64,000 nucleotides of DNA from Gammaproteobacteria bacterium (GCA_007693855.1 RECU01000011.1:1-64000), one strand, 5' to 3'. Positions 52,753 to 64,000 are shown, numbered from the stretch's first letter. Numbers and translations are program-made. The notes: generated from the letters alone by a model not told the origin.

Positions 52753-52920
52753 TCGAGAACTCCCCAGGGAAGGCAACGAGGCCCGCCGAGAATACGCCGC
52801 TGAGGCGGACTGGGCCAGTCAAGAGGTGAATTTCTGCGACCTGCGTCAGGGGCGGCCCGCGGCTGGCCCGGCATGATGACGCGGGCAATGAGGCGGGCCC
52901 GTGCCACGGAGAGTGACAGG

Positions 52921-53907
52921 ATGAGATCGCAGGTTGGGGTGTTGCTCATGGTCGGGCTGGCCCTGTTCGCCCTGGCTGCCGCGCCCGCTGCGGCGGAATG
53001 GCACCGCGAGGAGGCTCCGTTGATGGGGACTTCCGTGTCGGTCGAGCTCTGGCACGAAGATGCCGAGACCGGTCGGGCGGCTGCACGCGCGGTAATGGCC
53101 GAGTATCACCGGATCAATGCGCGCATGAGCACCTATCGCGAGGACAGCGAGATCTCGCATGTCAATCGTGTCGCGTATGCGGCACCGGTGACCGTCAGCG
53201 AGGAATTGTTCGGTCTGCTGGCCCGGGCACTCGAGATTTCACGGCTGAGTGACGGTGCGTTCGATATCACCTTCGACAGCGTCGGCCAGCACTATGATTT
53301 CCGCAGCGGCCAGCGGCCGGATGCAGCGACGCTGGCGAGCGAGCTCGAGGTGCTGGACTATCGCCTGGTCGAACTGGACGAGGCGACCCGAAGCGTTCGC
53401 TTTCTGGCCGAAGGCGTGCGGCTGAATCTTGGCGGGATCGGCAAGGGTTACGCGGTCGAGCGTGGCGCGGAGATTCTTCGCGAGCGCGGCATCGCCCATG
53501 CCCTGCTCAATGCGGGTGGTGACAGCCGGGTCATCGGTGATCGCCGCGGCCAGCCATGGTGGACGGGTATTCGCGACCCCCGCGACGCCGACCAGGTGGT
53601 GGTGCGTCTGCCCCTGCAGGATGAGGCCGTCTCCACCTCCGGTGATTACGAGCGTTATTTCGAAGCCGAGGGTGTGCGTTACCACCATATCCTTGATCCG
53701 GCCAGCGGCCTGCCGGTAGGCAGCCTGCGCAGTGCCACCGTGATTGGCCCGGATGCGGTACTCACGGATGCCTTGTCCACCACGGTGTTCGTTCTCGGCG
53801 TCGAGCAGGGCATGGCCCTGATCGCGCGGCTGCCGGCCTACGAGGCCGTGCTGATCGATCACGAGGGGCGCATGGCAGTCTCCTCCGGGCTGGCCCCGCC
53901 GCCTTAG
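52921..53907 (+). CDS. apbE: FAD:protein FMN transferase
   Basis: An ATG at 52921 with GGAGAG upstream gives 328 residues with a Sec signal ending AAAPAAA near 25. The ApbE fold is evident: EAPLMGTSVSVE, MSTYREDSEISHVN, LNLGGIGKGYAVERGAEIL, LLNAGGDSRVIG and the metal site DALSTTVFVLG. It attaches FMN to threonines of exported flavoproteins such as RnfG or NqrC subunits; no such substrate is in the window. A weak hairpin follows, then the riboswitch-led operon. Confidence 0.93.
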   Translation: MRSQVGVLLMVGLALFALAAAPAAAEWHREEAPLMGTSVSVELWHEDAETGRAAARAVMAEYHRINARMSTYREDSEISHVNRVAYAAPVTVSEELFGLLARALEISRLSDGAFDITFDSVGQHYDFRSGQRPDAATLASELEVLDYRLVELDEATRSVRFLAEGVRLNLGGIGKGYAVERGAEILRERGIAHALLNAGGDSRVIGDRRGQPWWTGIRDPRDADQVVVRLPLQDEAVSTSGDYERYFEAEGVRYHHILDPASGLPVGSLRSATVIGPDAVLTDALSTTVFVLGVEQGMALIARLPAYEAVLIDHEGRMAVSSGLAPPP

Positions 53908-53958: not shown

Positions 53959-54012
53959 GAAACTTGTGACGACGGTCACTGCCCGGCCACCGGGTGAGCC
54001 GCACTATGTCAT

Positions 54013-54101
54013 CCACTGACAAGGGCAAACCCGTCGAAGGGCGGGGACGCAAAACCACCGGTCTAAGGGCCAGCGCCTAGGACAGCGGGGATGCCAGTTG
54101 C
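54013..54101 (+). ncRNA. Cyclic-di-GMP-I (GEMM-I) riboswitch aptamer
   Basis: The sequence follows the GEMM-I consensus in order: AAGGGCAAACC (54020-54031 region), a P2 hairpin (CCCGUC loop GGCGGG), the invariant GACGCAAA at 54046-54053, then CCACCGGUCUAAGG and CCUAGGACAGCGGGG forming P3 with the tetraloop-receptor-like CUAAG/CCUAGGA, and AUGCCAGU closing P1 against ACUG. It is close to the Vibrio cholerae Vc2 aptamer. The P2 loop reads GAAG rather than perfect GNRA. A following TGCCGG/CCGGCA stem (54099-54115) overlaps the P1 3' strand and could be the switching hairpin. The thioredoxin start codon lies 86 bases downstream. A CACTAT -10-like box at 54002-54007 fits transcription starting at the aptamer. 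Confidence 0.92.
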
Positions 54102-54186
54102 CGGAACGGCCGGCATGGGCCGTGGCGCCCGGGCACTCCCTCTGCTGCCTTCCAGGTGTCGGTACGACGGCCGAAAGGGCGGACGG

Positions 54187-54714
54187 ATGATGGCGGCGAA
54201 TGCAAAGCGATGGGATGTGGCGATGCTCGCCGGTCTCGCAATGGCCACGTTTCTGCTCGGCGCGGGCTCTGCCAGCCGCGCGGGCGAGACCGGCGCCGAC
54301 GCGGCCCCCGACTTCGCACTGAAGGCCTTCGATGGCCGTAACCACCGGCTCTCCGAACTCCGCGGCCAGGTCGTGCTGATCAATTTCTGGACCAGCCGGT
54401 GTGGCCCCTGCCGCGCCCAGATGTCCGAGCTCGCCGAGCTGCACGCGGAACTGTCAGGCGCGGGCGTAGGGGTGCTCAGCGTCAACTTCGACAGCGATCC
54501 GGAACGGGCACGCGAGTTCATCACCACCCACGGCATCGCCTTCCCGGTGCTGCGCGATGACGGCCGTGAGGTGTCTCGCCGCTATGGCGTCCGCGGCATT
54601 CCGCGGCTCGTGATGATCGATCGCGAGGGTCTGATCCGCCATGTCTACAACGACCACCGTACCGGGCAGACCCGTGAGTACCGGGCCCTGGTGCTCGATC
54701 TGCTGGAGGAGTAA
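54187..54714 (+). CDS. TlpA/ResA-like thioredoxin-fold protein, membrane-anchored or exported
   Basis: An ATG at 54187 (or 54190) follows AAAGGGCGGA and gives 175 residues. A hydrophobic segment (about 13-31) leads to a thioredoxin fold with redox motif CGPC in NFWTSRCGPCRAQM, a FDSDPERAREF insertion and the cis-Pro segment GIPRLVMID. It should act in the periplasm on disulfides. As first gene after the c-di-GMP riboswitch, it may mature cysteines in the envelope complex, although few Cys are seen there. Four bases separate it from the next gene. Confidence 0.9.
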   Translation: MMAANAKRWDVAMLAGLAMATFLLGAGSASRAGETGADAAPDFALKAFDGRNHRLSELRGQVVLINFWTSRCGPCRAQMSELAELHAELSGAGVGVLSVNFDSDPERAREFITTHGIAFPVLRDDGREVSRRYGVRGIPRLVMIDREGLIRHVYNDHRTGQTREYRALVLDLLEE

Positions 54715-54717
54715 GCG

Positions 54718-55290
54718 ATGTTCCCCATGAAGTTTTTCCGGTCCACGGGCGCGCGCGCAGCCGCCCGGGCTGCACCGCGTCGGGCGGGCTGGTTGGCCAT
54801 GCTGGCGGGCTGCGGTGCGGTGGGCCTGGTCTCGGCCGAGGAGTTCTCGGCCATTGACCGGGACGTCGAGGCGCTGAAGCAGGAGGTGCTGGCGCTTAAT
54901 CGCGATCTCTTCCTGCTGGAAGAGGAGCTGCTGTTTCCGGCGAATACCCAGGTCGCCGTGTTCGTCTCCATGGATGTCGGTGAGTTCTTCGCCCTGGACG
55001 CGGTCAGCCTGCGGCTGAACGGCCGCGAAGTCGCCAACTACCTGTACACCGAACGCGAGGTCGAGGCGCTGCTGCGCGGTGGTGTGCATCGGCTCTACAT
55101 GGGCAACGTCCGCGCCGGCGAGCATGAGCTGGTTGCCGTGTTTACCGGCATCGGTCCGCATGGGCGCGAGTACCGGCGAGGTGCCGAGTTGAGCTTTGCC
55201 AAGGGGATCGGCCCGAAGTATGTCGAGCTGCGCATCAGTGACGTCGAGCGTCGCCTGCAGCCTGAATTCGTCGTGCGCAAGTGGGAGTGA
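54718..55290 (+). CDS. Exported coiled-coil protein of unknown function
   Basis: GGAGGAG seven bases upstream sets the start at 54718 (190 residues). A basic N-terminus and a hydrophobic stretch (about 20-40, ending GLVSAEE) indicate export. A coiled coil (about 45-70) follows, then a beta-rich domain (about 80-185) containing FALDAVSLRLNGREVANYLY and GNVRAGEHELVAVFTGIG, reminiscent of a carbohydrate-binding or immunoglobulin-like fold. No family is recognised. It lies in the riboswitch operon between thioredoxin and the TPR genes. Confidence 0.82.
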   Translation: MFPMKFFRSTGARAAARAAPRRAGWLAMLAGCGAVGLVSAEEFSAIDRDVEALKQEVLALNRDLFLLEEELLFPANTQVAVFVSMDVGEFFALDAVSLRLNGREVANYLYTEREVEALLRGGVHRLYMGNVRAGEHELVAVFTGIGPHGREYRRGAELSFAKGIGPKYVELRISDVERRLQPEFVVRKWE

Positions 55291-55294
55291 GCCC

Positions 55295-57166
55295 TTGAGT
55301 CCAGCGCTTCGTATCACCGCCCTGCTGTTGCTGTGCTCCACGGCGTGGAGTGCCAGCCGGGCGGAGACCACCGTAGTGCGTGAACCGCACTACGGCGAGG
55401 TGCTGTTCCATTTCTATGTCGGTCAACCTTTTGAGGCGATTACGCGTATCGAGGCCGGACGCGTTGCCGGTCATATTGAATTCCATGACGAGGAAGCCGA
55501 GCTGCTGCTCGGGGGCATGCTGCTCGACTGGGGCCAGCACCGCGAGGCTGCGCGCATCTTCGTCGGCCTGCTCGAGACCACCCGAAGCGCGGAGGTGCGG
55601 GATCGCGCATGGCTGGAGCTTGCGCGCCTGTCATGGCAGCGGGGTGCACTCGCCCAGGCCCAGACCGCGCTGGCGCGCATCGGCGATACGCTCTCGCCAG
55701 GCCGCGCGGCCGAGAGGGCGATGATCGAAGCCCAACTCCTGATGGCCATCGGCCAGTACGCTCAGGCCTCGGAGCGACTGGCGCGTTGGGACGGCCCCGC
55801 GGACTGGCGCGCTTACGCTCAGTTCAACCATGGCGTGGCCTTGGTGCGCCAGGGGCGTCTGGAAGAAGGTCTTCGCACCCTGGAGACCGTCGGCGCCCGT
55901 CCGGGGCGCAGCCCTGAGCTGCGGGCACTCGCCGACCGTGCCAACGTCGCGCTTGGCTTTACCCTGCTGGAGCATGGCCGCCCCGACGACGCGCGCGCGG
56001 CCCTCGAGCGGGTCCGACTGCATGGGCCGCACTCCAGTGAGGCGCTGCTGGGGTTCGGCTGGGCGGAATCGGCGCTTGGACGACACCGCGAGTCGCTCAC
56101 GCCCTGGCTGACCCTGCGCGAGCGCGACCTGCTCGATCCGGCCGTTCAGGAATCGTTGCTCGCTATTCCGCATGCCTTCGCCAGCCTGTCAGCCTATGGC
56201 CAGGCGGCAGAGGCCTATCTCGCTGCGATCGATACCCTGGACACGGAACTCGGGCGCATCGAGCGCGCCATCACCGCCATCCGCGATGGCGCGCTGGTGC
56301 CCGCATTGCTGGCGCGCGACGACCAGGAACAGCTGGGTTGGCACTGGCAGCTCGACGCGCTGCCTGACAGCCTGGAAAGCCGGTATCTCGCCGAGGTGAT
56401 CGCCACCCACGAATTCCAGGAAGGACTCAAGAATACTCGTGATCTCGCGTTCGTCCGGAGCGTGCTGCTCGAGTGGGGCGAGAGCCTCGGTGCATTCGCC
56501 GACATGGTCGCCACGCAGCAGCTGGCCTGGCAGTCGCGCGCGCCACGTGCCGAGGCACTGATGGCGCGCAGTGACGTGGCCGGCATGCAGGCCCGGCGTG
56601 ACGCGCTCGCCAGCACGCTCGAACGCGCAGTCCAGCATCGCGACACCCTGGCGCTGGCCGGTCGCGACGAGCAGCTGCAGTTCGAGGAACTCGACGAGGT
56701 GGCCGGGCGGCTCGCGCCACTCGACCAGACGGACCCGGACGTGGCAGAGCTTGTCGTGCGCGAGCGGGTGATGCGCGGGGTACTGCTGTGGCAGCTCAAC
56801 GCCGAGTTCCCTGCGCGCGTGTGGCAGCAGACCCGCGAACTCAGGGACCTTGAACCCGTGCTCGACGAGATGGCCGCCCGCGAGGCGCGCATCGAGACGC
56901 TGCGCGACGGGGCCGAGGCGGCCTTCGAAGACCAGGCCAGGCGTATCGTCGCACTCGGGCCCCGCGTGGCGGCGTTGCTGGAGGCCAGCGATGCGGCCAG
57001 CGTCCGCCAGCGCGCCCACCTCGAGAACCTCGCGGTGGCCAGCCTCGAGCGCCAGGCCTCCCGCCTGCGCAGCCACCAGGTCCAGGCACGTTTCGCGCTG
57101 GCGCGGATCTACGACCGCGCGGCCGCTGGCGAGGTCGCGGCCACTCGACCGGAGGGGTCGCGATGA
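55295..57166 (+). CDS. Exported TPR-repeat protein (first)
   Basis: A TTG start at 55295 with GGGAG upstream gives 623 residues and exposes a normal Sec signal (LSPALRITALLLLCSTAW, then SRAE); the longer frame from 55196 overlaps the preceding gene and lacks a signal. The mature part has several TPR-like pairs (about 60-330), for example RVAGHIEFHDEEAELLLGGM and YGQAAEAYLAAID, and a coiled-coil C-terminus. No enzyme motif is seen. It is a likely periplasmic or outer-membrane scaffold of the TolQR-linked complex. Overlaps the next gene by ATGA. Confidence 0.87.
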   Translation: MSPALRITALLLLCSTAWSASRAETTVVREPHYGEVLFHFYVGQPFEAITRIEAGRVAGHIEFHDEEAELLLGGMLLDWGQHREAARIFVGLLETTRSAEVRDRAWLELARLSWQRGALAQAQTALARIGDTLSPGRAAERAMIEAQLLMAIGQYAQASERLARWDGPADWRAYAQFNHGVALVRQGRLEEGLRTLETVGARPGRSPELRALADRANVALGFTLLEHGRPDDARAALERVRLHGPHSSEALLGFGWAESALGRHRESLTPWLTLRERDLLDPAVQESLLAIPHAFASLSAYGQAAEAYLAAIDTLDTELGRIERAITAIRDGALVPALLARDDQEQLGWHWQLDALPDSLESRYLAEVIATHEFQEGLKNTRDLAFVRSVLLEWGESLGAFADMVATQQLAWQSRAPRAEALMARSDVAGMQARRDALASTLERAVQHRDTLALAGRDEQLQFEELDEVAGRLAPLDQTDPDVAELVVRERVMRGVLLWQLNAEFPARVWQQTRELRDLEPVLDEMAAREARIETLRDGAEAAFEDQARRIVALGPRVAALLEASDAASVRQRAHLENLAVASLERQASRLRSHQVQARFALARIYDRAAAGEVAATRPEGSR

Positions 57167-59958
57167 GTGTGCCTGCGGTGGCCGTGGTGGTGATCGCGGC
57201 ATCGCTCTGGCCTTTCGGTCGGGGCGGCGAGGAGCGTCGCGCCGAACCGACGCTGCGATCGCTGGAGGCGCCCGCGATCGAGATCCGTGAGGATCAACCC
57301 CTGCCCGAGGCGGGGGAGGCCGCACGCGAGCAGTACCGGCGGTTTCTGGCGCTCGGCGAAGGCGACGAGGCGATGACCGCCGAGGCGCTGCGACGGCTTG
57401 GCGATCTCGCGCTGGAACTCGAGGAAGAGATTGCCCTGGGGCTGTTGAGCGAGGCGCTCGACGGCGAAGGCCATGCCGAGGCGATCGCGCTATACCGGGA
57501 GCGCCTCAGCCGTTTCCCTGCACATCCGGACAACGACATCGTGCGCTACCAGCTGGCGCGGGCGCAGGAACTGGGCGGTGATCGCCTGGCCGCACTGGCG
57601 ACGCTGGATGAGCTGATCCTGCGCCACCCCGACTCCACACTCGCCGACGAGGTGCAGTTCCGTCGCGGCGAACTGCTGTTTTCGCGTGGGCGCTACCGGG
57701 ATGCAGAGCTCGCCTATGCCGCAGTGCTGGCGACTACGCCAGCGAGCGAATTCGCCGTGCAGGCCGCCTACAAACACGGCTGGGCATTGTTCAAGCAGGG
57801 GCTGCTGCCGGAGTCGCTGCAGGCGTTTTTCGGGCTACTGGTGGACCGCAGCGAGGCCGGTGTAGACGCGCTCGATGCCCTCGCACGCCAGCAGCGGGAA
57901 CTCCTCGAGGATGTGCTGCGTGTGATGGCCCTGTCGCTGGCCGGGCTCGAAGGGGTCGAGACCCTGCATGCACTGCTTGCCGCGGTGCCGGCGCGTGAGC
58001 CCTGGGCGGCCGAGACGCATCGGGCGCTGGGCACGCTCTACCTTGAGCAGGAACGCTATACCGATACTGCGGCCGTGATGACGGCCTTTGTCGACTGGGA
58101 TCCACTGCATGCCGAGGCCCCGGCACTGGCACTCGAGGGGATGGATGCACTGCGTCGTGGTGGCTTCGCTGGCCCGCTGCTCGCGGCCAAGCAAGACTTC
58201 GTCGAAGGGTTCGGCCTCGATACACCTTACTGGGTCCGTCACCGACCTGCGGACCAGCCGAACACGGTCGCGGCGCTTGGCGGGGCACTGACCACCCTGG
58301 CGCAGCATGCGCATGCCCAATCGCAGTTGCCGGCGCCGCCGGCAGGCGCGCTCGCCGATGCCATCCGCTGGTATCGCCTGCTGCTCCAGTACTTCCCTGA
58401 GGACGAGGCGGCACCGACCCATCACTTCCTGTTCGCGGAGCTGCTGCTCGAGGCGGGCGACGTCGACGGGGCCATCCAGGCCTTCGAGGCGACCGCCTAC
58501 GGTTACGCGATGCATCCGCGCAGTGCAGAAGCCGCCTACGCCGGGCTGCTGGCCCGCGACCGTGCGGCCGATGCACTCACGCCGGCACCGCTGCCCATGG
58601 CCCAAGACCGGATCGCTGCCGCCGAACGTTTCAGCAGCGTGTTTCCCGAGCATCCCCAGGCGCTCGACGTGCTGACCGATGCCGCGGAACGAGCCTTCGC
58701 GCTAGACGACGCGCCGGTGGCGCTGCGCCTGGCCCGCGAAGTCACTGGTGTCGAGCCGGCTCCGCCCGCGCATCTGGCCCGTGTCGCATGGCGCATCCAG
58801 GGCCACGTGTTGTTCGACCTGATGGCGTACGCCGAGGCCGAGTCGGCCTACTGGGCGGTGCACGGCCTGCTCGCCGTGGACGACCTGGAGGGACGCGACG
58901 ACATCGAGGCGCGACTGGCTGCGAGCATTTACCGACAGGGCGAGGCGGCGCGCGACCGGGCCGATCACGCGGTGGCGGCTGGGCATTTCCTGCGGGTCGG
59001 TGAGCGTCTGCCGGGCGCCGAGATCCGTCCGGTGGCCGAGTTCGATGCGGCGATCGCCTATCTCGCGGCGACCGACTGGCAGGCGGCCGTCGAGGTCTTG
59101 ACCGACTTCCGCACACGCTACCCGGATCATCCGCTGGCCAGTCAGGTGGAAATCAACCTCGCCAGCGCCTACGAGTCGCTGGGCGATCCCGCTGCCGCGG
59201 CCACGGAGTACCGTCGGATGGCGGCGCGGCTGCCTCGCAACGACGAGCAGCGCGGCCTGCTCTGGCGCGCCAGTGAACTGCTGGAGGCGGCGGGCGATAT
59301 CCCCGCCACCGAGGCGGTCCTGGTGCAGATCACCCGGGATCATGCGGGGGCCTTCGAGGAGGCGGTGGAAGCCCATCAGCAGCTCATCGAGCTGGCTGAT
59401 ACGCGTGGCGACGACGCGGCGGCACTGGCGCGTTCGGGACAGCTGGTGGCGTTCGAAGCGGGCGGGCCGACAACTGTCCGTACGCGCACGCTGGCAGCGC
59501 GGGCAGCCCTGCGTCTGGCCGACGTCGATGCCGCCGCCTTTCACGCCACGCCGCTGGTGATGCCCCTGGCTGACAGCCTCAGGGTAAAGCGCCGGCGTAT
59601 GGAGGCCGCGCTGGAGGGGTATGCACGCGCCTCGGGCTATGCCGTCGATGAGGTGGTGACCGCAGCCACGTTCGCCACGGCCGAGCTCTATCACGGGCTG
59701 GCGCGGGCGCTGATGGACTCGCCGCGCCCGCCGGAGCTCGACGCGCTGGCACTGGATCAATACGAGATGCTGCTTGAGGAGCAGGCCTTCCCCTTCGAGG
59801 AGCAGGCTATCGAAATCCATGAGCGCAACGCCCGGCGCACGCTCGATGGACTCTACGACCGCTGGATATCCGCGAGCTTCGCCCAGCTGGCGCAGTTGAT
59901 GCCCGGGCGCTATGCCAAAGCCGAACAGGGAGAGACCCATGTCGCACGCCTGTATTGA
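57163..59958 (+). CDS. Exported TPR-repeat protein (second), 931 residues
   Basis: The ATG overlaps the previous stop (ATGA). A short hydrophobic N-terminus (AVAVVVIAASLWPF) suggests an exported or membrane-anchored protein. The rest is many TPR or TPR-like helix pairs, for example EAIALYRERLSRFPAHPDND, RGRYRDAELAYAAVL and QVEINLASAYESLGDPAAAATEYRRM. The size and repeat content match a periplasmic scaffold. The next gene overlaps it by 20 bases. In Glt/Agl systems large TPR proteins connect the inner-membrane motor with the outer membrane; that parallel is inferred from gene content. Confidence 0.9.
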   Translation: MSVPAVAVVVIAASLWPFGRGGEERRAEPTLRSLEAPAIEIREDQPLPEAGEAAREQYRRFLALGEGDEAMTAEALRRLGDLALELEEEIALGLLSEALDGEGHAEAIALYRERLSRFPAHPDNDIVRYQLARAQELGGDRLAALATLDELILRHPDSTLADEVQFRRGELLFSRGRYRDAELAYAAVLATTPASEFAVQAAYKHGWALFKQGLLPESLQAFFGLLVDRSEAGVDALDALARQQRELLEDVLRVMALSLAGLEGVETLHALLAAVPAREPWAAETHRALGTLYLEQERYTDTAAVMTAFVDWDPLHAEAPALALEGMDALRRGGFAGPLLAAKQDFVEGFGLDTPYWVRHRPADQPNTVAALGGALTTLAQHAHAQSQLPAPPAGALADAIRWYRLLLQYFPEDEAAPTHHFLFAELLLEAGDVDGAIQAFEATAYGYAMHPRSAEAAYAGLLARDRAADALTPAPLPMAQDRIAAAERFSSVFPEHPQALDVLTDAAERAFALDDAPVALRLAREVTGVEPAPPAHLARVAWRIQGHVLFDLMAYAEAESAYWAVHGLLAVDDLEGRDDIEARLAASIYRQGEAARDRADHAVAAGHFLRVGERLPGAEIRPVAEFDAAIAYLAATDWQAAVEVLTDFRTRYPDHPLASQVEINLASAYESLGDPAAAATEYRRMAARLPRNDEQRGLLWRASELLEAAGDIPATEAVLVQITRDHAGAFEEAVEAHQQLIELADTRGDDAAALARSGQLVAFEAGGPTTVRTRTLAARAALRLADVDAAAFHATPLVMPLADSLRVKRRRMEAALEGYARASGYAVDEVVTAATFATAELYHGLARALMDSPRPPELDALALDQYEMLLEEQAFPFEEQAIEIHERNARRTLDGLYDRWISASFAQLAQLMPGRYAKAEQGETHVARLY

Positions 59959-60577
59959 CATCATCAGGCACCGCATCGCACTGTCGCTTCTGCTGGTGGC
60001 CATCGGCCTGGCGGGCTGTGCTGCGCCGGGCCAGCGTCCGGTCGCCGAAGCCCCTGAAGTCACCGAGGCAGCCCGCCTCGACTTCGCCGCGGCGCTGGCC
60101 GACATGCAGGCGGGTCAACTGGCCTCGGCTGAACGACGGCTGCGGGCCTTGCAGGCACGCCAGCCCGCGCTGCCAGGGCCACAGGTGAATCTGGCGATCG
60201 TGCTGCGCGAGCGCGGGCAGGTCGATGACGCCCGCGCGCTGCTCGAGACCGTGGTACGCGAGCATCCCGAGTTCGCCCCAGCGCATCACCAGCTGGGACT
60301 GATGCTGCGCGAGCACGGGCGCTTCGAAGCCGCCGACGCGGCCTATGCCAACGCGCTCGCGGCCGATCCCCACTATGCCCTCGCACATTTCAACCGCGCC
60401 GTGCTGAACGATCTGTATCTGGCCCGGCCGGCGGTCGCCCTGCTGCACTTCGAGCGTTATCAGGACATCGCCGGCGCCGACCCGGAGGGCGAGGTCGCCC
60501 GCTGGATCGTCGAACTGCGGCGGCGGGTCGATGCCGAGGCGGCGCTGCGGGTGGCTGACCGGGGAGCAGGCGCATGA
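59939..60577 (+). CDS. TPR lipoprotein
   Basis: GGGAGAG upstream sets the start at 59939 (212 residues). A lipobox IGLAGC (Cys near 27) follows a hydrophobic core, so it should be outer-membrane anchored. The mature part is TPR repeats: AALADMQAGQLASAERRLRAL, QVNLAIVLRERGQVDDARAL and LGLMLREHGRFEAADAAYAN. It overlaps the next gene by ATGA. A TPR lipoprotein in this position recalls GltE of Myxococcus gliding machinery. Confidence 0.9.
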   Translation: MSHACIDIIRHRIALSLLLVAIGLAGCAAPGQRPVAEAPEVTEAARLDFAAALADMQAGQLASAERRLRALQARQPALPGPQVNLAIVLRERGQVDDARALLETVVREHPEFAPAHHQLGLMLREHGRFEAADAAYANALAADPHYALAHFNRAVLNDLYLARPAVALLHFERYQDIAGADPEGEVARWIVELRRRVDAEAALRVADRGAGA

Positions 60578-61050
60578 AGCCTGCGACACACAGGACGATG
60601 GCGCGGGCGGCTCTGCTGGCGACCCTGGTCACAGGCCTGGCGGCCACCGCCGCCGCCGATGTGCCGGCGGCGACCACGGTGCCTGCCGAGCCGCGCGAGA
60701 CGACCCGCGAATCGTCGCCGCCCGCCGCGACGCCACGTGATGCCGCGGCCAGCGCGCGCGCGGTACCTGAGGACCGTGTTGCGGCGGCGCCGGGGCGCGC
60801 CAGCGAGGACGCGGTGCTGGCCCGCCGGCTGGTCGATGAGCTGGAGCTCGACGCCATCGCCATCACCGGCAACGACGAGCTGCCGAGCATCATGCACATC
60901 GTGCCCTGGAAATCCGCCCAGCCGGGTGAAGTTCCGGGCCGACCTGCCGATTCCCTGATCAACGACATCGTCGCGCCGCTGGACCGGCGGGAGTACCGCC
61001 GCCAGCTGCGCTATCGCGAGGCACTGGCCGAGAGCTCATCTGATCGCTAG
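60574..61050 (+). CDS. Small exported protein of unknown function
   Basis: The 158-residue product has a signal (ALLATLVTGLAATAAADV) and a Pro/Ala/Glu/Thr-rich linker (about 30-80) before a charged helical end (DRREYRRQLRYREALAES). No domain is recognised. It sits directly before the TolQ gene, as does the small exported protein at 6958-7212 in the first operon. Confidence 0.72.
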   Translation: MKPATHRTMARAALLATLVTGLAATAAADVPAATTVPAEPRETTRESSPPAATPRDAAASARAVPEDRVAAAPGRASEDAVLARRLVDELELDAIAITGNDELPSIMHIVPWKSAQPGEVPGRPADSLINDIVAPLDRREYRRQLRYREALAESSSDR

Positions 61051-61075
61051 CTGATTCCCCTGGAGGAGACCCGAG

Positions 61076-61762
61076 ATGGACATGTACACAAGCGTAGTGC
61101 GCTTTTTCCAGGATGGCGGGGTGTTCATGTACCCCATCGTCCTGGTGCTGGCGCTGGGAGTGGCCATCGCCATCGAGCGGTGGCTGTACCTGCAGTCGAC
61201 CGAGAGCCGCAACCGCGCCCTGTGGAAGCGCATCGCCCCCCAGCTGCAGGCCGGGAATTTCCAGGCTGCCGCCCAGGAGGCGGGCAAGTCGAAGGCGGCG
61301 ATCGGCAACGTACTGAGCTACGGTTTCGCCCGCATCCGCTCGGCTGGCCGACGTGACGACATCGAGAAGGCCATGGAAGAGAGCCTGATGGAGGTCATGC
61401 CGCGGCTGGAGAAGCGCACCCACTATCTGGCGACCTTCGCCAATGTCGCCACCCTGCTGGGCCTGCTGGGCACGATTATCGGCCTGATCCGCGCGTTCAC
61501 GGCGGTGGCGGGCGCCAACCCCGCCGACAAGGCGGACCTGCTCTCGGCGAGTATCTCGGTGGCCATGAACACCACGGCGTTCGGCCTGATGGCGGCGATT
61601 CCAATGCTGCTGATGCACACGCTGCTGCAGACCAAGACCTCGGAGATCATCGACGGGCTCGAGATGGCCTCGGTGAAGTTCCTGAATGCCATCACCGAGC
61701 GACGTGATCCTGCCCCGCAGCCGGGCAAGGCCCAGGTCAAGGCGCAGGCGGCCGCGGCATGA
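61076..61762 (+). CDS. TolQ/ExbB/MotA-family proton channel subunit
   Basis: The 228-residue product has an N-terminal helix (GVFMYPIVLVLALGVAIAIER), a cytoplasmic loop and two more helices with TFANVATLLGLLGTIIGLIRAF and TTAFGLMAAIPMLLMHTLL. These match the pore helices of TolQ, and Thr in the third helix faces the proton path in the family. The likely partners are the two TolR-like proteins downstream. AglR of Myxococcus has the same role. Overlaps the next gene by ATGA. Confidence 0.94.
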   Translation: MDMYTSVVRFFQDGGVFMYPIVLVLALGVAIAIERWLYLQSTESRNRALWKRIAPQLQAGNFQAAAQEAGKSKAAIGNVLSYGFARIRSAGRRDDIEKAMEESLMEVMPRLEKRTHYLATFANVATLLGLLGTIIGLIRAFTAVAGANPADKADLLSASISVAMNTTAFGLMAAIPMLLMHTLLQTKTSEIIDGLEMASVKFLNAITERRDPAPQPGKAQVKAQAAAA

Positions 61763-62283
61763 AATCCCGCCGCCTGCGGGCACGGCGGTCCAAGGATCCC
61801 GCCGAGCTCAACATCACCGCCTTCATGAACCTGATGGTGGTGCTGGTGCCGTTCCTGCTGATCACTGCGGTGTTCTCGCGGCTTGCGGTGCTTGAGCTGA
61901 ACCTGCCGGCGCCCGGTGAAGGTGGCGAAGACGACGACCAGCCGGCACTCGCGCTGGAGGTGACGGTGCGTGACGACCGCCTGGAACTTGGCGACCGCAA
62001 TCGTGGTTCGCTGGCAGTCATCACCCGCGAGGACGACGACCGCGCAGCACTTCTCGAGCTTTCGGAGCGCTTGCAGGACCTCAAGGCCCAGCACCCGGAC
62101 ACGCTGGCCGCGACGCTGCTGCTGGAGCCGGATATCCAATATGACCTGCTCGTGCAGGTCATGGACACCGTGCGGGTGGTCGAGCACGCGGGCAACGGCG
62201 AGCTGGAACAGTTGGAGCTGTTCCCGGATATCTCGATCGGCGATGCGCCGATACTGGCGTCTGCCGAGGGGACAGGACGATGA
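61759..62283 (+). CDS. TolR/ExbD-family protein lacking the membrane Asp
   Basis: The 174-residue product has a single membrane helix (about 21-42) and a periplasmic alpha/beta domain. In TolR and ExbD the helix begins with an invariant Asp (for example ITPLIDV) needed for proton coupling; here it reads NITAFMNLMVVLVPF, with Asn24 in that place. The fold is otherwise intact. It overlaps the second TolR-like gene by ATGA, so the pair probably forms a mixed dimer. The substitution could not be checked against relatives here. Confidence 0.88.
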   Translation: MKSRRLRARRSKDPAELNITAFMNLMVVLVPFLLITAVFSRLAVLELNLPAPGEGGEDDDQPALALEVTVRDDRLELGDRNRGSLAVITREDDDRAALLELSERLQDLKAQHPDTLAATLLLEPDIQYDLLVQVMDTVRVVEHAGNGELEQLELFPDISIGDAPILASAEGTGR

Positions 62284-62786
62284 GCGATCGCGTCACGCGC
62301 ATGCAGCGCCACCATCAGCGCCATCGCAAGGGCGGTGGCCTGAACCTCGTGTCGCTGATGGACATCTTCACCATCCTGGTGTTCTTCCTGCTGGTGAACT
62401 CGACAGAGGTCGAGACCCTGCCGAGCGATCGGGATCTCACTTTGCCCGACTCGGTGTCGCGGGAACTGCCGCGGGAGACGGTGGTGGTGGCGGTGACGCT
62501 GGATGACATCCTGGTGCAGGGTCGGCGGGTCGCCTCCGTGGCCGAGATCCTGGCCGAGGAGGGCGGGACGGTGATCGAGCCGCTGGCCGAGGCCCTGCGT
62601 GCCCAGCATGCCCGTGCTCTGCGCGCCAGCGAAGAGGGCGCCGAGGTCACGATCATGGGCGATCGCGAGCTGCCCTATCGACTGCTCCGCCGGATCATGG
62701 CGACCTGCACCGAGGCCGACTTTACGCGCCTGTCACTTGCCGTGAACCAGCGGGTGACTGAGCCGCAGGTAGCGCAGCTGCGCTGA
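62280..62786 (+). CDS. TolR/ExbD-family protein with conserved membrane Asp
   Basis: The 168-residue product has a membrane helix reading LNLVSLMDIFTILVFFLLV with Asp28 at the conserved position, followed by a periplasmic domain ending in NQRVTEPQVAQLR. It is the protonatable partner of the Asn-bearing paralogue. In Myxococcus, AglQ and AglS likewise form a pair with AglR. Twelve bases separate it from the TonB-like gene. Confidence 0.92.
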   Translation: MSDRVTRMQRHHQRHRKGGGLNLVSLMDIFTILVFFLLVNSTEVETLPSDRDLTLPDSVSRELPRETVVVAVTLDDILVQGRRVASVAEILAEEGGTVIEPLAEALRAQHARALRASEEGAEVTIMGDRELPYRLLRRIMATCTEADFTRLSLAVNQRVTEPQVAQLR

Positions 62787-62798
62787 CGGAGGACGATC

Positions 62799-63758
62799 AT
62801 GACCGCTGTGGCTGCAAGCAATCCGTACTACCGCAGTTTCGAGCTGCCCGGCAGCGCCGGTGGCGAGCAGGAGACGCGGTTTCGCCGGCTCACCTGGAAG
62901 GTCCTGCTGGTGCTGCTGGTGTGCTCGCTGGTGATGCCGTGGCTGCCGGTGCCCGAGCGTGCCGCCGACCGCGTCGAGGATATCCCACCGCGCCTGGCGC
63001 GGTTTGTTCTGGAGCGCGAGCCGCCGCCTCCGCCGCCGGTGGTCAGGGAGGAGCCTCGTCCGGTGGAGCCCGAGGTCGCTGTGGTCGAGCCGACGCGCGA
63101 GGTGCCGCCCCCTGAGCCTGCGCCGCAGCCGCGTCCGGAGGCCCGCGTCGAGGAGGCGCGTGAGCGCGCGGCAACCGCCGGCGTCATGCCGATGGCCGCG
63201 GAGCTGGCGGCACTGCGCGAGAGTGCCGCGCTGGCGAGTGTCCTGGACGCGAACACGGTGTCGAGCGCGGCCCAGGCCTCGCGTGCCGAGCGTGCGCTGA
63301 TCACCTCGCGTGCCGGTGAGGCCTCGAGCGGGATCACCACCGCCGAGCTCAGCCGCGGCACCGGCGGCGGCGGACTCGCCGAGCGCACCGCCACCACGGT
63401 GGACTCACCGGTCGCGGGCCTGGTGGCTGAGGAGACCGACCGCCGCGGCGGCGGTGACGCGGGGGTCGGTTCCCGCAGTCGCGAAGAGATCGAAATGGTC
63501 TTCGATCAGCACAAGGGCGCGATCTACGCACTCTACAGCCGAGCGCTGCGTGCCGACCCCACCCTGCAGGGCAAGGTGGTGCTGCGCCTGACCATCGCGC
63601 CGAACGGCGCGGTCACGGACTGTGAGATTGTTTCGAGCGAGCTCGGCGACGCCGAACTCGAGCGCCGGCTGGTGCAGCGGGTAATGATGTTCCGCTTCGA
63701 GGACCGCGACGTCGCACCGGTGACCACCACCAAGCCGATTGAGTTTTTTCCGGCGTAA
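62799..63758 (+). CDS. TonB-like protein with AgmX/PglI C-terminal domain
   Basis: The 319-residue product has an N-terminal membrane helix (about 32-51), a Pro/Glu-rich rigid stretch (about 65-115), an Ala/Thr-rich linker and a C-terminal domain with FDQHKGAIYALYSRALRADP and KVVLRLTIAPNGAVTDCEIV. That C-terminal pattern is the AgmX/PglI family, close to TonB. It would carry energy from the TolQR complex to periplasmic or outer-membrane parts. AgmX (GltJ) is a gliding-machinery protein in Myxococcus. This is the last gene of the riboswitch-led operon. Confidence 0.9.
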   Translation: MTAVAASNPYYRSFELPGSAGGEQETRFRRLTWKVLLVLLVCSLVMPWLPVPERAADRVEDIPPRLARFVLEREPPPPPPVVREEPRPVEPEVAVVEPTREVPPPEPAPQPRPEARVEEARERAATAGVMPMAAELAALRESAALASVLDANTVSSAAQASRAERALITSRAGEASSGITTAELSRGTGGGGLAERTATTVDSPVAGLVAEETDRRGGGDAGVGSRSREEIEMVFDQHKGAIYALYSRALRADPTLQGKVVLRLTIAPNGAVTDCEIVSSELGDAELERRLVQRVMMFRFEDRDVAPVTTTKPIEFFPA

Positions 63759-63918: not shown

Positions 63919-63938
63919 TGTGTGACTGTGTGCACACA
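63919..63938. promoter_or_regulatory. Inverted repeat upstream of the antitoxin-like gene
   Basis: TGTGTG (63919-63924) and CACACA (63933-63938) form a 6-bp inverted repeat 10 bases before the ATG of the antitoxin-like gene. Ribbon-helix-helix antitoxins often repress their own promoter through such a site. Confidence 0.4.
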
Positions 63939-63948
63939 AAGATTTATT

Positions 63949-64000
63949 ATGAAAAACATTACGTTGTCGGCCGACGAGACCCTGATCGAGGCGGCAAGAC
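63949..64000 (+). CDS. Start of a ribbon-helix-helix antitoxin-like protein, cut by window edge
   Basis: Only 17 residues are visible: MKNITLSADETLIEAAR. The beta-strand opening followed by a helix with a small-residue pattern matches VapB- or DUF2191-type ribbon-helix-helix antitoxins. The toxin gene would lie beyond the window. The bases upstream are AT-richer than the rest, consistent with a recently acquired module, but the sample is small. Confidence 0.55.
   Translation, partial: MKNITLSADETLIEAAR

Follow-up and report, generated by a model that had tools for sequence, protein, structure and literature searches.

Why should a sensor of the second messenger cyclic di-GMP (c-di-GMP) stand directly in front of ten genes for a proton-driven machine of the cell envelope? 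The question is raised by positions 54,013 to 63,758 of a 64,000-nt stretch of DNA from a gammaproteobacterium (GCA_007693855.1, RECU01000011.1:1-64000; hereafter the window). There, a reading made from the sequence alone had placed a c-di-GMP-I (GEMM-I) riboswitch at the head of an operon and had proposed a link between c-di-GMP and an envelope machine. Following up this locus computationally, we consider it likely that a CRP-type promoter and a c-di-GMP-I riboswitch together govern a ten-gene operon for an Agl-Glt-type core machine, the expression of which would depend on c-di-GMP. The aptamer, the gene order, the recurrent pairing of riboswitch and operon and the promoter signature were all computed directly. 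New here are this recurrent pairing, a CRP-like promoter with a swappable RNA behind it, a riboswitch-flanked paralogous cluster and a TolR-like subunit with Asn in place of Asp; among open-licence papers, we found no report linking a c-di-GMP riboswitch to this class of operon.

An Rfam covariance search of the window returned a full-length match to RF01051 (model positions 1-87) on the plus strand at 54014-54098, with 74.3 bits against a cut-off of 35 (E = 1e-12), the sole Rfam family at or above its cut-off within the 64 kb. The aptamer that the sequence-only reading had drawn at 54013-54101 is thus borne out, and the Rfam check it had proposed gave a score more than twice the family cut-off. 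With R1, a covariance model specific for the order and built from 19 of its GEMM-I sequences, the window copy included, the aptamer scored 96.5 bits. Nucleotides equivalent to the ligand contacts G20, A47 and C92 of the Vc2 riboswitch are present (in GGGCAAA, GACGCAAA and UGCC). Among three congeners the aptamer differs at few positions, and the leader just 3' of it diverges freely. The window's genome encodes 16 GGDEF domains.

Does the pairing of riboswitch and operon extend beyond this genome? Using the TolQ-like protein as query, we collected 80 related loci, in most of which, where the contig was sufficient, the gene order apbE-g1-g2-...-g10 is kept; apbE precedes gene 1 in nearly all loci carrying both. 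R1 places an aptamer in the interval from apbE to gene 1 in the window and in L004, L005, L014, L015, L016, L025, L035 and L055. Of 34 related genomes with the relevant stretch, 15 have a riboswitch at the head of the operon, compared to 0.25 expected (P = 4e-24), and by family the pairing occurs in six of the twelve families of the order (P = 2e-10); the expectation and both P values assume uniform placement of aptamers in each genome, and the genome-level P value ignores relatedness. In other families of the class, all 40 loci examined lack the aptamer. Most of the compared sequences are metagenome assemblies. On a FastTree phylogeny of five concatenated genes, which includes paralogous copies and long branches and does not give the direction of change, the starred branches force at least nine changes of riboswitch state. 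The proposed connection between c-di-GMP and an envelope machine is supported, and it recurs across families.

One group carries a longer operon, in which the riboswitch is followed by a hydrazine-synthase-alpha-like cytochrome lipoprotein, SH3/barrel proteins, TlpA and DUF3570 and then by gene 2. L177:2789-9695 is an example of this module fused to the operon front, as seen in some families; in the window's own genome, the hydrazine-synthase-alpha-like module forms a separate cluster on another contig (L209).

The conserved promoter signature was found upstream of the aptamer. The interval that separates apbE from the riboswitch contains a CRP-like box on the plus strand (TGTGACGACGGTCACT, 53965-53980), recognised by conservation and by a match to 9 of 10 consensus positions. 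A single match of this kind is not significant in 64 kb; across loci, a score of 9/10 or more is reached by 19 of 30 riboswitch heads, compared to 0.66% of 150-mers drawn at random from these loci. A probable -10 region, CACTATGTC, follows on the same strand at 54002-54010 and is conserved as CACTATGTC or CACCATGTC in three congeners. Since the centre of the box (53972.5) is 41.5 bp upstream of 54014 and CACTATGTC separates the two, the arrangement of a class II CRP promoter, we predict a transcription start at about 54014, near the first base of the aptamer. The genome encodes CRP above the equivalog cut-off (316 versus 266 bits).

Most riboswitch-less loci, chiefly of the Woeseiaceae type, have a box, TGTGACGATTATCACG, and a conserved CTGTCACCATTC motif before gene 1, and their leaders are mostly too short for an aptamer; in seven of them, an Rfam scan found no other RNA family. 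As the same box and operon persist without the riboswitch, promoter and operon appear to form a stable unit between which the RNA is gained or lost as a swappable module. An intermediate state of such gain or loss would be represented by L161:8931-8979 (= L053:2931-2979), where a degenerate 5' half of a GEMM-I aptamer follows a CRP-like box.

Which machine, then, is encoded behind the riboswitch? Ten open reading frames (ORFs) follow the aptamer on the plus strand, each overlapping the next or separated from it by no more than 25 nt, as the sequence-only reading had described. Their immediate upstream neighbour, on the same strand, is apbE (FAD:protein FMN transferase; 52873-53907; PF02424, 279 bits). 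Gene 1 (54190-54714) encodes an exported TlpA/ResA-like thioredoxin (PF00578 and PF08534); a second candidate ATG lies at 54187, and because the nearest relative reads ATT at that codon, the start is probably at 54190. Gene 2 (54718-55290) is conserved class-wide (71-row alignment) and encodes an exported protein modelled as a coiled coil plus beta-sandwich (AlphaFold pLDDT 81), for which we found neither a Pfam or NCBIfam match nor, in a fold search, a PDB match at E ≤ 0.001. Three proteins with tetratricopeptide repeats (TPRs) come next: gene 3 (55295-57166; exported, TPR_19), which begins at a TTG at 55295 directly after gene 2; the large, exported gene 4 product (57163-59958), with YbgF/BamD-like repeats (TIGR02795, 91.3 bits; TPR_6); and the gene 5 lipoprotein (59912-60577, alternative start 59939; TPR families). 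Gene 6 (60574-61050) encodes a small exported protein with a GNxELPkvLYIVPWK-type motif (60-row alignment), no Pfam or NCBIfam match and a structure model of low confidence. Gene 7 (61076-61762; PF01618, 101 bits) encodes a TolQ/ExbB/AglR-like proton channel, the closest solved relative of which is TolQ (8odt), and genes 8 (61759-62283; PF02472, 57 bits) and 9 (62280-62786; PF02472, 56 bits) encode ExbD/TolR-like subunits. The last product, that of gene 10 (62799-63758), is a TonB-like, GltG-like transducer with an AgmX/PglI C-terminal domain (NF033768, 66.1 bits, cut-off 40), the C-terminus of which reaches 40.6 bits with the GltG model NF033760, below that model's cut-off of 650. After gene 10 we noticed a hairpin at 63919-63950, followed by the start of an ORF that by eye appears antitoxin-like (MKNITLSADETLIEAA).

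The Agl-Glt core complex (aglRQS plus gltC, D, E and G) has been reported to form, together with an additional gene, a cluster in gammaproteobacteria (Luciano et al. 2011, PMC3169522); its function there was termed unknown, and the text contains neither riboswitches nor c-di-GMP. Because a MotA_ExbB protein, two ExbD proteins, TPR proteins and an AgmX/PglI C-terminus match this published complex, the operon, which the sequence-only reading had left unnamed, seems best described as a gammaproteobacterial Agl-Glt core complex, with genes 7, 8 and 9 as the AglR-like channel and the two TolR-like subunits (AglQ and AglS counterparts). Genes 3, 4 and 5 occupy GltC-, GltD- and GltE-like positions. 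These labels are positional, resting on gene order and TPR content, as the equivalog models miss their cut-offs: the GltE model NF033758 gave 33 bits on gene 5, far under its cut-off of 225, and an NCBIfam scan of the ten proteins found no match to the GltC and GltD models.

The two TolR-like subunits are unlike each other at a critical residue. Asn24 of gene 8 aligns with the proton-carrying Asp of ExbD and, in a mutual alignment, with Asp28 of gene 9, which is retained. Where the motif was readable, gene 8 has the Asn in 158 loci, some of them from genomes fetched twice, and gene 9 has the Asp in 159; in a few divergent loci (L181, L182), gene 8 too retains the Asp. In Myxococcus, AglQ and AglS are both described with the Asp (PMC9389320), and the AglQ substitution D28N eliminates proton conductance and leaves the machine paralysed (PMC3858216). 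In a motor of the window type, only one of the two subunits may hence be active.

A second version of the operon, with a TolQ-like protein 55-59% identical, offers a hint of what the machine works on. In this paralogous cluster, four genomes, all from one family, have a GEMM-I aptamer ahead of gene 2, and another aptamer stands just after gene 10 in about 11 genomes. The next gene after the latter, where readable, encodes a secreted protein of roughly 1,700-2,200 residues, and the one such protein that was scanned contains DUF11 and SdrD_B domains. CRP-like boxes also occur in several paralogous-cluster leaders. Motor clusters of this kind flanked by GEMM-I aptamers were seen in L198, L191, L194, L197 and L201-L207. 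We regard the riboswitch-preceded giant surface protein as the best hint to the machine's substrate and as its candidate cargo. A wider picture, which we put forward tentatively and with some doubt, is that the Agl-Glt core machine of this gammaproteobacterial order belongs to a c-di-GMP and CRP regulon that includes giant surface proteins, and that it serves as a sessile-phase device displaying, moving or anchoring surface proteins, driven by a motor with one proton-active and one Asp-to-Asn TolR-like subunit.

Further GEMM-I aptamers were observed elsewhere. The window's genome holds two more, one at L001:1501-1589 before a repeat-rich lipoprotein and one at L002:1501-1586 (minus strand) upstream of an M23-peptidase-like gene flanked by lpxC-like and secA-like ones (named by eye). 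Tandem aptamers about 240 bp apart precede lipoproteins with a GDGPI(V/I)GAR motif in L085, L087 and L088, with similar tandem spacing in several other genomes. Genome G009 has about 20 matches, many of around 114 nt with similar scores on different contigs (e.g. C58:59-172 and C22:34901-35014), copies that are possibly carried by a repeated element.

How could the aptamer act on the operon? Directly 3' of it, a hairpin at 54099-54115 on the plus strand is formed by the strands TGCCGG (54099-54104) and CCGGCA (54110-54115) around AACGG, and its outer T-A pair becomes C-G in L144, a compensatory change within the genus. The sequence-only reading had seen in this stem a candidate expression platform overlapping the 3' strand of the aptamer helix P1. 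The stem exists and covaries, but its position is past P1, clear of the 3' strand (54092-54095); moreover, the pairing that would compete with P1 (AUGCC at 54091-54095 with GGCAU at 54112-54116) is not preserved in either of the two nearest relatives, so that a role as expression platform finds no support. Folding of the window leader, free or with the aptamer forced, and duplexes between the leader and the ribosome-binding site (RBS) gave no consistent switch of either the ON or the OFF sense. Some leaders in the paralogous cluster have RBS-sequestering helices (L191, z = -4.4; L194, z = -2.6; L202, z = -2.0), others are without them; the L194 leader before the giant gene has one as well (z = -3.6), and the helices of L191 and L197 show matching changes on both sides (GGGCUGCC with GGGCAGCC; GGGCUACC with GGGUAGCC). 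These helices make translational control likely in the paralogous cluster and possible in the window operon.

Several observations weigh against a c-di-GMP-dependent Agl-Glt operon as we propose it. About 40 Woeseiaceae-type loci retain promoter and operon without the riboswitch, which is thus not essential to the machine. In the window leader, no intrinsic (U-run) terminator follows the aptamer, and leader and RBS pair no more strongly than shuffled sequences do (z = -0.6). The tetraloop of the window aptamer is GAAG and not of the GNRA type, with GAAA in the congeners L144 and L145, and this loop might weaken tertiary docking. Furthermore, kinship with the Myxococcus Agl-Glt proteins is no more than probable, judged from family matches and architecture.

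Could the aptamer, though genuine, be in decay or function poorly in this strain, with the operon set mainly by the CRP-type promoter? The altered tetraloop, the lack of a recognisable expression platform in the window leader, the fossil aptamer in L161/L053 and the many relatives devoid of an aptamer all fit such a scenario. However, an aptamer that changes at few positions among three congeners while the adjacent 3' leader diverges freely, and that scores over twice the family cut-off, does not look like a decaying relic. The GAAG loop is a one-base change in an accessory tertiary contact; it lowers our confidence in full function, yet the family cut-off is still clearly passed. We therefore judge decay to be a rather unlikely explanation.

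As for the ligand, G at the G20 position favours c-di-GMP, while A favours 3',3'-cyclic GMP-AMP (cGAMP). The window aptamer and the listed operon heads have a G at the equivalent position, which speaks against a riboswitch responding to 3',3'-cGAMP or to several dinucleotides instead of c-di-GMP. We hold such a response to be improbable, even though GEMM-I aptamers of Geobacter sense cGAMP (PMC8835794) and the Vc2 G20 position is a selectivity factor, no hard filter (PMC9262584). An ordinary Tol-Pal or ExbBD-TonB system standing behind a riboswitch by chance would fit the operon's TolQ, ExbD and TonB_C Pfam matches but is scarcely credible, as the TolQ (68 versus 221 bits), TolR (24 versus 127 bits) and ExbB/ExbD equivalog scores stay far under their cut-offs, neither TolB nor Pal is among the ten genes and the transducer passes the AgmX/PglI cut-off.

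We thus favour joint control of the Agl-Glt-type operon by promoter and c-di-GMP riboswitch. In our model, the CRP-type promoter would transcribe the operon from about 54014 into a leader of about 175 nt that opens with the riboswitch, on which expression of the whole ten-gene unit would depend. We infer that c-di-GMP binding changes operon expression, and we lean slightly towards an increase during surface attachment; as an intrinsic terminator is absent, control would be translational or Rho-dependent. The TolQ-like channel and the two unlike TolR-like subunits would then power the TonB/GltG-like transducer, which may act on the cell surface by way of the TPR proteins in periplasm and outer membrane. 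A riboswitch on this operon ties a machine of unknown function to the switch from motile to attached life. Its recurrence provides a direct experimental handle, predicting when the machine is produced and that its role lies in attached life; the paralogous cluster, with its adjacent riboswitch-headed giant surface protein, offers a candidate cargo.

How does this operon compare to known systems? With the Agl-Glt gliding and Agl-Nfs spore-coat machines of Myxococcus xanthus it probably shares the architecture of motor and transducer, including a GltG/AgmX-type C-terminus; it differs from them in that no Group A glt gene was recognised among the window's ten and in the c-di-GMP riboswitch of its leader. 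Closer is the gammaproteobacterial Agl-Glt core complex (PMC3169522), likewise a single cluster with one TolQ-like protein, two TolR-like proteins, a GltG-like TonB-type protein, TPR proteins and one or more extra genes. To this set, the window operon adds a TlpA-like gene, the unnamed conserved genes 2 and 6 and apbE as neighbour, and it further departs from the published complex by an Asn for Asp in one TolR-like subunit and by the riboswitch in its leader.

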